64,000 nt of DNA, taken from contig JAKBXW010000001.1 in assembly GCA_021840555.1 (NCBI GenBank), forward strand, positions 62,001-126,000, in the 5' to 3' direction. The notes under the pieces are model-generated. The model saw only the letters and a program-made list of their open reading frames with translations, searched no databases and was not told the DNA's origin. The stretch comes from Nitrospirota bacterium (lineage in GTDB: Bacteria > Nitrospirota > Leptospirillia > Leptospirillales > Leptospirillaceae). Shown piece after piece: positions 7,538 through 61,191 of this stretch. A program made the position numbers and the translations under genes. The number at the start of each line of letters is the position of its first letter. Within the stretch, counting starts at the first letter, position 1.

Positions 7538-9040
7538 ATGTCCCCTGAAATGTCCGGTGGCGAGATGCCAGAATCCATGAGGCCTCCGATGGAACCCACC
7601 CTCTGGCAGAAAAGCCGTCCGGGAGCCCGAGGTGTATTCCCGCCGGGGGTCCCTCCCGAGATTTTTGAGACCCGCTGTCCCGAAGGTCTAAGAAGGGAAT
7701 CCCCTCTCTCCCTTCCGGAGCTGTCGGAGCTTGACGTGGTCCGGCACTTTACCCGCCTCTCCCATCTGAATCGCGGGGTCGATACCCATTTCTACCCTCT
7801 TGGCTCCTGCACGATGAAATACAATCCCAAAATAATGGACAGGATTCCGGAGATTGCGGGGTTCCGCGACCTCCATCCAAGGATCGCGCCGGAAGGGATG
7901 CAGGGATTGCTGGAGTCACTTTACACCCTCGAGGAGTTATTAGGCCATCTCCTCGGGATGGAGGCCGTGACCCTGGCTCCGGCAGCCGGGGCCCATGGAG
8001 AACTGACCGGGATCCTGATCGCAAGGCGCTATTTCGAGTCCAGAGGAGACCGGGGACGGACGGAAATCCTGATTCCGGATTCGGCTCACGGGACCAATCC
8101 CGCCAGCGCGGCAATGGGTGGATTTTCCGTCCGCGTTCTTCCTTCGGGAAACGATGGCGGAGTGGATCTGGCCCATCTCGAAGAGGCCTTGTCAGAAAGA
8201 ACGGCGCTTGTGATGATGACTGTCCCGAGCACGCTGGGCATTTTCGAAAAGGATCTCCTCAAGATGGTGGCCATGGTCAAAGCCTCCGGCGCCCTTCTTT
8301 ACATGGATGGGGCCAATTTCAATGCCTTCATGGGACTTTTGAGACCCGGCGACCTGGGTTTCGACATCGTCCACATCAACACCCACAAGACGTTGGCCAC
8401 CCCCCACGGGGGCGGCGGACCTGGTTCCGGACCGGTCGGCGTCAAGGCCCATCTGGCGCCTTTCCTGCCCTCTCCCCGCATCCGGAAAGAGGGGGAACGC
8501 TTTTCCCTGGTTTCGCCAAAGACCTCAATCGGACCGATCCGGTCATTCATCGGATCTTCCCTTGTGCTTTTGAGAGCCCTCGGATATTTGCAGATGCTTG
8601 GAGCGGAAGGCGTCCGGCGGGTAGCCCTCTACGCCCTTCTCAACGCAAACTATCTCCGAGCCCGCTTATCGGGGACTCTTCCAAGAACCGGATCCGGACT
8701 CTGTGCCCATGAGTTCGTCCTTTCGGCGAAAGAACTAGGCGCCGAAGGCCTTCATGCTTCGGATCTTGCCAAGGAGATACTCGATGCCGGGTATTACGCT
8801 CCCACGATATCATTTCCGCTCATTGTCCCCGAGGCCATGATGATCGAGCCCACCGAGACGGAGTCGAAGGAGACGCTGGACCGTTTTGCCGAGGATTTCC
8901 GGAAGATCGTCGAACGGGCCCGGAGCAATCCGTCAAGGGTCAAGGAGGCGCCCCGCCGCACACCGGTCTCAAGACCCGACGAGGTGTCGGCGGCCCGGGA
9001 TCCCGTCCTTGCCGACCCGGCTTCCCTACGCGCTCTCTGA
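7538..9040 (+). CDS. gcvPB: glycine dehydrogenase (decarboxylating) subunit 2
   Basis: FYPLGSCTMKYNPKI, PLP-lysine region NTHKTLATPHGGGGPGSGPVGV. Confidence 0.95.
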   Translation: MSPEMSGGEMPESMRPPMEPTLWQKSRPGARGVFPPGVPPEIFETRCPEGLRRESPLSLPELSELDVVRHFTRLSHLNRGVDTHFYPLGSCTMKYNPKIMDRIPEIAGFRDLHPRIAPEGMQGLLESLYTLEELLGHLLGMEAVTLAPAAGAHGELTGILIARRYFESRGDRGRTEILIPDSAHGTNPASAAMGGFSVRVLPSGNDGGVDLAHLEEALSERTALVMMTVPSTLGIFEKDLLKMVAMVKASGALLYMDGANFNAFMGLLRPGDLGFDIVHINTHKTLATPHGGGGPGSGPVGVKAHLAPFLPSPRIRKEGERFSLVSPKTSIGPIRSFIGSSLVLLRALGYLQMLGAEGVRRVALYALLNANYLRARLSGTLPRTGSGLCAHEFVLSAKELGAEGLHASDLAKEILDAGYYAPTISFPLIVPEAMMIEPTETESKETLDRFAEDFRKIVERARSNPSRVKEAPRRTPVSRPDEVSAARDPVLADPASLRAL

Positions 9041-52406: not shown

Positions 52407-53267
52407 ATGAGTGGATTGGTCATCAACACCAACGCGGCCTCCCTGGGCGCGCAATACAACCTGAACGAGACACAGAACCGGATCAACCAGACCATCAACC
52501 GCCTGTCCTCCGGCTATCGGGTCAATGCTCCGGCGGATGACCCGGCGGGATACGCCATCGGCCAGGTCATGACCGCCTACATGAAATCCGTCCAGCAGGC
52601 CGTCCGGAACGCCAACGACGGAGCCAACCTGATCCAGACGATCGGAGGGGCGCTGCTGACCGACAACGAAATTCTCATCAAGATGCGATCCCTGGCCATT
52701 CAGGCGGCGAACGGAACCTACAGCCCCACGGATCTGTCGACTCTTCAGAACGAGTACCAGAACCTCATGAGCGAAATCAACCGGATCGCGAAGGTCGCCA
52801 ATTTCAACGGCCGGAAGGTGCTCGACGGAAGTCTCGAAAACGGCCTCACCTTCCAGGTCGATGTGGGAACGCAGGGGGAGAACCGGCTCGTCATCGCCGT
52901 TCCTTCCATCAGCAGCGATGTTCTGGGGCTTTATAACGGAAGCACCCTGATCATGCCCTTGGGAATGACCTCGGTGATCAACGGCGACATGGCTCTTTCG
53001 GCCATCTCCGCCATCGACGGAGCCCTCGACGAGCTGAACCGGATCCAGGGAACCCTCGGGGCTTTCCAGCAGCGCATGACCTGGACCATACGGAACCTGA
53101 ATACCGCCCTGGTGAATATCGCCGCCACCAAGTCCCAGATCAAGGACGCGAACTTCGCCAAGGAAACCTCCCGTTTTGTCCGGGACCGTATCCTTCAGCA
53201 GTCCGGAACCGCCGTTCTGGCCCAGGCAAACCAGATTCCCCAGGCGGCGATCAAGCTGATACCGTAG
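52407..53267 (+). CDS. fliC: flagellin (copy 1)
   Basis: LVINTNAASLGAQYNLNETQNRINQTINRLSSGYRVNAPADDPAGYAIGQ...QQSGTAVLAQANQIPQAAIKLIP; ATG 52407 with GGAGGG SD. Confidence 0.95.
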   Translation: MSGLVINTNAASLGAQYNLNETQNRINQTINRLSSGYRVNAPADDPAGYAIGQVMTAYMKSVQQAVRNANDGANLIQTIGGALLTDNEILIKMRSLAIQAANGTYSPTDLSTLQNEYQNLMSEINRIAKVANFNGRKVLDGSLENGLTFQVDVGTQGENRLVIAVPSISSDVLGLYNGSTLIMPLGMTSVINGDMALSAISAIDGALDELNRIQGTLGAFQQRMTWTIRNLNTALVNIAATKSQIKDANFAKETSRFVRDRILQQSGTAVLAQANQIPQAAIKLIP

Positions 53268-56836: not shown

Positions 56837-56866
56837 TCGGGCTGTTCAAGCGAGAGGGGGCTTCCC

Positions 56867-57568
56867 ATTCTTATTCTGACGCGTAAGATCGGCGAAGGGA
56901 TCCGGATCGGTTCCTCGGTCCACATCGTTGTTCTGGAGGTGAAGGGGGGCGCCGTGCGGATCGGGATCGAGGCGCCGGAGGGAGTTCTCATCCACAGGGA
57001 TGAAGTCCTGGCACGGATCATGGAGGAAAACCGGAAGGCGACCGGAACCTCCCGCGACAAGGTGGAGGGAGAGACCCTGTTGCCGGCGTCTTCCGGAGGA
57101 AAGTCCATGAAGGTCTTCGACACAAAGCGTTTCGGCAAGATTCCTGTGGAGGACGAGCGGATCATCATCTTCCCCGACGGCCTTCTGGGATTCCCCGCGT
57201 CTCGGCGGTTCGTTCTTCTCGAGACGGCCGAAAACGGAATTTTTTACTGGCTTCAGTCCCTCGATGATCCGGGGCTTGCCTTCGTGGTCATCGATCCGGT
57301 CCATCTGATCCCCGACTACAAGGATCGGCTTGTTCTTTCGGAATGGGACCGGGAGTTTTTCGATCCCGAAATGCCGTCCAGCCTCCACGCCCTGGCGATC
57401 GTCACCTTTCCCGAGACTGGCGAGGCGGGGGCCACGGCGAATCTCCAGGGGCCCCTTCTCGTCCGGGAGAGCGACCGTCTGGGCCGGCAGGTCGTTTTGG
57501 CCGAGTCCGACGCCTGGCTTCGCATGCCGGTCTTTCTTCCGGAAGGGAAAGGCGGGGAGACCTCCTAA
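56867..57568 (+). CDS. CsrA-FliW fusion protein (233 aa), apparent ATT start
   Basis: in-frame from ATT 56867: (M)LILTRKIGEGIRIGSSVHIVVLEVKGGAVRIGIEAPEGVLIHRDEVLARIMEEN = CsrA, linker, then MKVFDTKRFGKIPVEDERIIIFPDGLLGFPASRRFVLL...GPLLVRESDRLGRQVVLAES = FliW; no stop between; GAGAGGGGG SD 6 nt upstream of ATT. Confidence 0.85.
   Translation: MLILTRKIGEGIRIGSSVHIVVLEVKGGAVRIGIEAPEGVLIHRDEVLARIMEENRKATGTSRDKVEGETLLPASSGGKSMKVFDTKRFGKIPVEDERIIIFPDGLLGFPASRRFVLLETAENGIFYWLQSLDDPGLAFVVIDPVHLIPDYKDRLVLSEWDREFFDPEMPSSLHALAIVTFPETGEAGATANLQGPLLVRESDRLGRQVVLAESDAWLRMPVFLPEGKGGETS
57107..57568 (+). CDS. fliW: possible separately initiated FliW (nested in the fusion frame)
   Basis: in-frame ATG 57107 preceded by GGAGGA at 57095-57100, spacing 6 nt; protein starts MKVFDTKRFG. 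Confidence 0.5.
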   Translation: MKVFDTKRFGKIPVEDERIIIFPDGLLGFPASRRFVLLETAENGIFYWLQSLDDPGLAFVVIDPVHLIPDYKDRLVLSEWDREFFDPEMPSSLHALAIVTFPETGEAGATANLQGPLLVRESDRLGRQVVLAESDAWLRMPVFLPEGKGGETS

Positions 57569-57650: not shown

Positions 57651-57684
57651 GGCCAGGGATGAGGCCGGAATAACCCAAGGAGGG
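57651..57684 (+). promoter_or_regulatory. candidate CsrA-binding region in fliC2 leader
   Basis: GGCC-AGGGATGA-GGCC hairpin with GGA in loop, and CAAGGAGGG overlapping the SD. Confidence 0.5.
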
Positions 57685-57688
57685 TATC

Positions 57689-58516
57689 ATGAGCGGTTTG
57701 ATCATCAACGACAACATGGCATCGCTGAATGCCCAGTACAATCTGAACGAGACCCAGCGCGCCCTGAACAAGCACATTAACCGGCTCTCCTCAGGGTACC
57801 GCGTGAACACCCCCGCGGACGATCCTGCCGGCTATTCGATCTCCCAGCGCATGGGCGGTCAGATCAAGTCCTATGCGGCGGCCATCCGGAACGCCAATGA
57901 CGGATCGAGCCTTCTGCAGACGGCGAACGGGGCCCTTCAGACCGACAACACCATCATCCTGAAGATGCGCCAGCTGGCCATCGAGGCGGCCAACAGCACC
58001 TATTCGCCGAAGGACCTCAAGGTTCTGAACCAGGAGTACCAGCACCTCAAGTCGGAAATCACCCGTATCGCGAAGGTGACCGACTTCAACGGGATGAAGC
58101 TTCTGGACGGAAGCCATTCGGACTTCAAGTTCCATGTCGGTATCTACACGACCTTCAGCGACAGGCTGCATGTGAGGATCGGAAAGGTGGATGCCGGCGA
58201 GCTGGGAATCAACGGAACGGACATTTTAAACCGCAACGATGCCAAACATTCGGTGGACCAGCTCGACAAGGCTCTCGACCGGATCAACGAGCTGCAGGGC
58301 AACATCGGTGCCATCCAGGACCGGATGGAATGGACGATCCGGAACCTGAACACCGCAACCACCAACGTCCAGGCGAGCCGGGCCGGAATTCGCGACGTGG
58401 ATTTCGCCGGAGAAACCGCCAAGTTCACAAAGAGACAGATCCTGTCCCAGTCGGGCGCGGCCGTGCTGGCGCAGGCGAACCTCATCCCGCAGGCAGCCAT
58501 CAAGCTGCTCCCTTAG
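57689..58516 (+). CDS. fliC: flagellin (copy 2)
   Basis: LIINDNMASLNAQYNLNETQRALNKHINRLSSGYRVNTPADDPAGYSISQRM...QSGAAVLAQANLIPQAAIKLLP. Confidence 0.96.
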   Translation: MSGLIINDNMASLNAQYNLNETQRALNKHINRLSSGYRVNTPADDPAGYSISQRMGGQIKSYAAAIRNANDGSSLLQTANGALQTDNTIILKMRQLAIEAANSTYSPKDLKVLNQEYQHLKSEITRIAKVTDFNGMKLLDGSHSDFKFHVGIYTTFSDRLHVRIGKVDAGELGINGTDILNRNDAKHSVDQLDKALDRINELQGNIGAIQDRMEWTIRNLNTATTNVQASRAGIRDVDFAGETAKFTKRQILSQSGAAVLAQANLIPQAAIKLLP

Positions 58517-60155: not shown

Positions 60156-60602
60156 ATGAACCAGTATGCCGCCGCAACCTACCGCCAGACCATGGAAAGC
60201 ACACTTTCTCCGGCCGACCTTCTGATTCGGCTTTATGAAGGAGCCATCCGGTGCGTGGACATCATCAAGGAAGCGGCCAATTCGGGGGACATTCCCCGGA
60301 GGGCGGATGCTGTCAACAGGCTGACGGGCATCCTGTCCGAACTGGCCTCCGCCGTTGACGGCCAGGAGCCGAAAGATCTTTCCGATTCCCTCGTCTCCCT
60401 CTATCTTTTCCTGATCCAGGAGGTGACACTGGCCAATGTGGCCGGGGAGGTCTTTCGTCTTGATCCCGTTCGGGAGATAATGTCCGAACTCCTCGGAGGC
60501 TGGCGGACAGCCGCCCAGACCGCGCGTAAGCCCCCGGTGGTCGCTCCCGGGAAGACGGACGATGTCCAGACTTCCCGGCGCTCCCTGTCGGTGCGCGGAT
60601 GA
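60156..60602 (+). CDS. fliS: flagellin chaperone FliS
   Basis: YAAATYRQTMESTLSPADLLIRLYEGAIRCVDII. Confidence 0.92.
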   Translation: MNQYAAATYRQTMESTLSPADLLIRLYEGAIRCVDIIKEAANSGDIPRRADAVNRLTGILSELASAVDGQEPKDLSDSLVSLYLFLIQEVTLANVAGEVFRLDPVREIMSELLGGWRTAAQTARKPPVVAPGKTDDVQTSRRSLSVRG

Positions 60603-60985
60603 TCGGCGATACGTCCAGGGAGCTGGTGGAGGAGTTCATGGGCCAGCTCGAGACCCTTTACGACAAGGTGTCTCTCGGCCAAGGGGTTCGGGCTCTTTCA
60701 CTGGCCGAGGTCGAAGGTCTGGATCTGAAACCCCTTCTGGCGGCCCAGGAGGCTCTCGATCGGGCGAAGGTCGTCCTTGGCGACCATCTGGGTTATCCGG
60801 AGCTCGTGATGCTTCTCCATCGCATCGATGTTCTGACGCGCTCTCTTGGCCCCTTCGGAGCGGAGGACGGACCGCTCGCTTCCCGTCTGTCCGCCCTTTC
60901 GGGGCAGGGACCTCATGGAGCTTACGCGAAAGCTTCCCGGCAGTCATCCGCGCTGTTTGGCCAAATAAAACTGGGACAGGTCTAA
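60599..60985 (+). CDS. FliT-like hypothetical protein
   Basis: overlaps fliS stop; helical protein, assignment by position only. Confidence 0.5.
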   Translation: MIGDTSRELVEEFMGQLETLYDKVSLGQGVRALSLAEVEGLDLKPLLAAQEALDRAKVVLGDHLGYPELVMLLHRIDVLTRSLGPFGAEDGPLASRLSALSGQGPHGAYAKASRQSSALFGQIKLGQV

Positions 60986-61191
60986 GGTTTTCCCTTACGC
61001 TTGAGGATTTCCGGATTTTTCCTTGTTCTGCCTCCCCATGGATTTTCTCAGATTGACAGATTTCTGACAGGGAAAGAAAATCCCGGGAGATCTTCTGTTC
61101 AGGAATAAAATTCCTCTTCCATATTGATCCATATAAAAAATCCAATTTAATCATATATATTTAGTTATCGTGACTCCCTTCTTCCCGATCT

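Follow-up and report, generated by a model that had tools for sequence, protein, structure and literature searches.

In Bacillus subtilis, flagellin (Hag), FliW, and CsrA form a FliC-FliW-CsrA homeostasis switch whose strict stoichiometry results from the arrangement of the genes and from translational coupling (PMC6529632). Oshiro et al. found that one FliW per CsrA dimer suffices to inhibit CsrA and that flagellin titrates FliW (PMC6529632). The fliW and csrA genes of B. subtilis overlap, in that order, and CsrA sites are found on the flagellin Shine-Dalgarno sequence and upstream of it. In Geobacter, Leptospirillum-like bacteria, and other Nitrospirota the two genes are paired in the order csrA-fliW. 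Pathogenic Escherichia coli also has a protein antagonist of CsrA, CesT, but CesT is a distinct protein that is not fused to CsrA and that competes for the RNA pocket.

The locus described here has the same three parts as the B. subtilis switch, but CsrA and FliW are joined in one polypeptide in the order CsrA-FliW. It lies in the window, the 64,000-nucleotide stretch of DNA that was analyzed, within a gene order of flgM-flgN-flgK-flgL-[fusion]-fliC-fliD-fliS. The earlier note had claimed, from the letters alone, that complete CsrA and FliW domains share a reading frame beginning at 56867. Profile searches bore this out. The frame is open from 56867 to 57565 on the forward strand, ends in TAA (57566 to 57568), and encodes 233 residues. 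Residues 2 to 52 matched the Pfam CsrA profile PF02599 (65.3 bits versus a cut-off of 27; E value, 4.9e-18), and this part also matched NCBIfam TIGR00202 (82.7 bits versus 70.1). Residues 100 to 221 matched the FliW profile PF02623 (101.2 bits versus a cut-off of 25). The features of the locus are collected in Table 1.

Table 1. Features of the fused csrA-fliW gene and of the adjoining flagellin gene (positions in the window)
Feature	Position	Strand	Basis
Shine-Dalgarno-like region, AGAGGGGG	56852..56866	+	sequence; anti-SD duplex
ATT (AUU) start codon of CsrA	56867..56869	+	exclusion of other starts; family conservation
CsrA domain, residues 1-58	56867..57040	+	PF02599, TIGR00202; conserved residues
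GTG picked as start by gene callers	56939..56941	+	loses 24 conserved residues
Linker, 22 codons (25 in three species)	57041..57106	+	dN/dS 0.52; pLDDT <50 at residues 61-78
Internal Shine-Dalgarno GGAGGA, inside linker	57095..57100	+	sequence; anti-SD duplex
Internal in-frame ATG, start of FliW proper	57107..57109	+	conserved; equivalent start in unfused relatives
FliW domain and stop codon TAA	57107..57568	+	PF02623, 101.2 bits; fold matches
Predicted CsrA site 1, fliC leader hairpin GGCC-AGGGAUGA-GGCC	57651..57666	+	sequence
Predicted CsrA site 2, over fliC Shine-Dalgarno, CCC-AAGGA-GGG	57674..57684	+	sequence
Flagellin gene fliC, likely target	57689..58516	+	PF00669 and PF00700

Residues 2 to 24 evolve under strong purifying selection. 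Over 12 species, dN/dS was 0.09 for residues 2 to 24, 0.10 for the rest of CsrA, and 0.20 for FliW. Residues L4, R44, I51, and N55 and the RNA-contact motifs LILTR and HRDE were retained in all aligned fused sequences, as expected from the earlier suggestion that the RNA-contact residues are conserved. As judged from sequence, I51 and N55 correspond to V51 and N55 of C. jejuni CsrA, which are required for FliW binding (PMC7829508). An AlphaFold model of the monomer was confident for FliW, moderate for CsrA, and disordered in the linker; its best fold matches were the FliW crystal structures 2aj7, 5dmd, 5jak, and 5dmb_A (E value, ≤3e-9). As a model of a monomer, it is silent on docking of FliW to its own CsrA.

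One alternative is cleavage of the fused chain within its flexible linker, after which separate CsrA and FliW would act as they do in relatives. The predicted disorder and fast evolution of the linker would suit such a cut, but the linker has no conserved motif suggesting a cleavage site, and the open frame is kept throughout the genus even though the ancestral stop codon would directly give separate proteins. Cleavage is thus improbable.

The fusion occurs in a single genus of relatives of Leptospirillum from acid waters. The locus was present in 12 of its 14 genomes, including that of the window, and was a stop-free fusion in all 12, among which we counted one (L013) whose contig ends 15 residues short of the usual FliW end. 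In G011, contig ends interrupt the linker region, and G009 had no match. The linker contained no stop codon in any of the 12 assemblies, and its sole length change was 9 nucleotides. A frameshift or stop between the domains in independent genomes would have spoken against the fusion; none was seen, and an artifact of that type was rejected. Each genome with a match had a single csrA, and no second, unfused csrA or fliW was found in the same genome (the genome of the window, in 157 contigs, is 82% complete). In a tree of FliW sequences, the fused proteins formed one clade (support, 99/96) beside unfused Leptospirillum-like sequences; the fusion arose once.

The sister loci in named genomes of the genus come from metagenome assemblies, which might raise the suspicion of an assembly or binning artifact. 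Yet separate assemblies of different species carry the fusion, with proteins that are 65 to 89% identical. Because all 12 whole loci of the genus share the stop-free frame, the fusion is not an assembly error, and we consider an artifact of either kind to have a negligible chance of being correct. The fused CsrA-FliW gene is confirmed as real and conserved.

The survey for further fusions covered the Nitrospirota, the phylum of a Bacillota record, and the phylum of record SM23_31. No stop-free match to CsrA plus FliW was found outside this genus among 396 Nitrospirota. For the phylum of the Bacillota record, 300 genomes yielded no frame that spanned CsrA and FliW together, and in 150 of those 300 there was no csrA frame longer than 149 amino acids among matches above the Pfam cut-off, a search that would also reveal the order FliW-CsrA. 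None of 6 genomes from the phylum of SM23_31 had a fusion. Two candidate fusions, L044 and L045, were rejected; in both, fliW precedes csrA as a separate gene.

The unfused relatives indicate what the fusion replaced. In Leptospirillum-like genomes the stop codon of csrA overlaps the start codon of fliW by 4 nucleotides (ATGA or GTGA), preceded by purine-rich sequence. A stop/start overlap with purines upstream is the classic layout for translational coupling. This overlapping-gene ancestor was missing from the earlier note. The genus of the window has lost the ancestral csrA stop, and a linker of 22 to 25 residues replaces a CsrA tail of about 35 residues. The pairs of the Leptospirillum-like family share the AUU start and the fliC leader hairpins with the fusion, but they are separate genes with the 4-nucleotide overlap. 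In many Nitrospirota, csrA and fliW share a frame that a stop codon interrupts. This in-frame arrangement was seen in about 50 other Nitrospirota (for example, G142, G350, and G248), with TGA, TAA, or TAG between the genes and none fused. Because csrA and fliW already share a frame in those genomes, one lost stop codon would fuse them, and read-through of the intervening stop would likewise yield a fusion.

The start of the fused gene is unusual. Reading back from 56867, one meets an in-frame stop after 10 codons. Because no ATG, GTG, or TTG occurs between that stop and LILTR, the start codon of CsrA is, by exclusion, the AUU at 56867. The duplex of the preceding sequence with the anti-Shine-Dalgarno sequence (−11.1 kcal/mol) was in the top 1% by strength among in-frame codon positions, and the ATT aligns exactly with the ATG, GTG, or TTG start of relatives elsewhere in the phylum. 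The earlier reading of the frame from 56867 was correct, although it overlooked that this codon is ATT.

An alternative is that the AUU is unused, that translation begins at GTG 56939 or ATG 57107, that CsrA is dead, and that the gene is simply fliW. AUU is a rare start codon, and the program-made list of open reading frames begins at GTG 56939. As the earlier note pointed out, that GTG drops the first 24 residues, which include the LILTR strand. However, codons 2 to 24 have a dN/dS of only 0.09 with RNA-contact residues kept, and ATG takes the place of the AUU in two sister species. Because the 23 codons from the AUU to the GTG evolve as protein, they must be translated. GTG 56939 was therefore rejected as the true start, and a gene consisting of fliW only is very improbable. 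Exclusion and codon evolution together show that AUU is the start codon.

The AUU start extends beyond the fused genes. Among 20 csrA genes examined in the family, 17 started with ATT, 2 with ATG, and 1 with ATA. The fused genes account for 9 ATT starts (9 of 12), the ATG of the two sister species, and the ATA; the unfused genes started with ATT in all 8 cases (L016, L018, L019, L021, L022, L023, L041, and L043), most with a GGAGG-type Shine-Dalgarno sequence upstream. Because all 8 unfused genes also start with ATT, the AUU start is independent of the fusion. Weak csrA starts recur within the phylum: in another Nitrospirota family (f16), csrA began with TTG in 6 of 6 genes examined (L057 to L062), and L063 began with GTG, for a total of seven such genes.

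The infC gene of E. coli starts with ATT. In the genome of the window, infC (L064; contig C147 of G000 near 8333, minus strand) also has an apparent ATT start, AGGGGGTTACTG ATT AAT TCC, with AGGGGG TTACTG ATT as the sequence leading into it. In AUU-initiated infC and pcnB the start codon limits translation, a likeness to what is proposed here. AUU and AUA starts gave less output than AUG in reporter work (PMC13009471). A capped supply of CsrA would suit a regulator of this type because even a slight excess of CsrA blocks motility in B. subtilis (PMC6529632).

A second in-frame start codon lies inside the gene. The window reads GGAGGAAAGTCCATG at the start of FliW proper, where the GGAGGA duplex (−9.5 kcal/mol) is within the strongest 7% of in-frame codon positions. 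The internal start codon was kept in 12 of 12 fused genomes (ATG in 10, GTG in 2), and in 11 of the 12 the anti-Shine-Dalgarno pairing before it exceeded that of about 85 to 99% of in-frame codon positions. The exception was L007, with a weak match. Because the start codon is kept in all genomes and the Shine-Dalgarno pairing is above background in all but one, free FliW (about 17 kDa) is probably also made from the internal start. The earlier note had started from a 1:1 fusion of regulator and antagonist and a changed logic such as intramolecular self-inhibition; the fusion itself stands, whereas a strict 1:1 ratio is probably too strict.

It is possible, although we regard it as rather unlikely, that the fusion is the only product, with the internal start a relic, no free FliW, a strict 1:1 ratio, and CsrA that is purely self-inhibited. 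The frame is stop-free, with insertions and deletions in multiples of three bases in all species, and the weak internal Shine-Dalgarno match of L007 would fit. Against this, ATG or GTG occupies the same codon in all 12 genomes, and the Shine-Dalgarno-like purines are kept despite changing linker residues.

A likely target adjoins the fused gene. The flagellin gene fliC begins 120 nucleotides downstream, and CsrA sites are predicted in its leader from sequence. Both GGA-in-loop elements were conserved in the fliC leaders of 10 fused and 7 unfused loci; in the unfused relatives, site 1 has a different stem, GGUCC(A)-NGGAU-(U)GGACC. In a fold of the full-length leader, site 1 was absorbed into a longer stem. 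Because of this longer pairing, the site 1 hairpin is a prediction that needs an alternative fold. Leaders with two sites have been described for hag and for fliC of C. difficile (PMC11898703), and this one is similar. A second flagellin gene in the window (52407 to 53267), upstream of flgM, lacks both CsrA-type leader elements, and its regulation may therefore differ from that of fliC. Following fliS there is an open frame of 164 amino acids (window positions 60562 to 61056) with no Pfam match.

We consider it probable, at roughly 0.6, that the fusion operates as a modified FliC-FliW-CsrA homeostasis switch, to which internal initiation probably adds further FliW. Ribosomes would initiate at the AUU, presumably at a low rate, to give a CsrA-FliW protein of about 26 kDa, and the start at 57107 would probably also give free FliW. 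The CsrA halves would form the usual dimer, bearing two tethered FliW domains, and unoccupied FliW would keep the dimer inactive. With two FliW domains per dimer at high local concentration, plus free FliW, the basal state should be CsrA off. A build-up of cytoplasmic flagellin would then occupy FliW and free CsrA, which would bind the two GGA hairpins in the adjoining fliC leader and block translation. We infer the expression of both products, the intramolecular inhibition, and the release by flagellin. Titration of the FliW half by flagellin, one of the possibilities raised earlier, is consistent with the kept FliW-binding residues, the fliC leader sites, and the B. subtilis switch.

As in B. 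subtilis, gene architecture would set the stoichiometry (PMC6529632), but with at least two FliW per CsrA dimer rather than about one, and from an AUU start. In none of the 12 species are CsrA and FliW encoded as separate, exchangeable partners, although free FliW may come from within the gene. Because the fusion provides at least two FliW per dimer versus one, its dose response must differ from that of B. subtilis. We suggest only tentatively that the fusion is a single-chain flagellin sensor, a dimer with two FliW domains that is off until flagellin sits on both, with a sharper threshold than that in B. subtilis and with an abundance that is capped by the IF3-subject AUU start and trimmed by free FliW from the internal start.

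The domains and the switch have been described before; a version with CsrA and FliW fused, an AUU codon, and an internal start is new. In the open-access literature searched, which leaves out most subscription papers, we found nothing published on a fused CsrA-FliW protein or on the csrA of Leptospirillum, nor any mention of an AUU-initiated csrA. Such architectures may already be listed, uncommented, in protein databases.

The locus is an apparent case of conserved AUU initiation beyond infC and pcnB, and because the AUU start is family-wide, csrA is probably truncated or missed by automated annotation across these bacteria. Structural and binding studies could use the fusion as a single-chain construct that needs no engineering. 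It is a natural experiment on the claim from B. subtilis that a near 1:1 ratio of FliW to CsrA dimer makes the switch work, because it fixes the ratio at no fewer than two FliW per dimer and asks whether flagellin still releases a tethered antagonist. With CsrA and FliW joined in one gene that has a rare start and an internal start, these bacteria must set the balance between the two in a new way.
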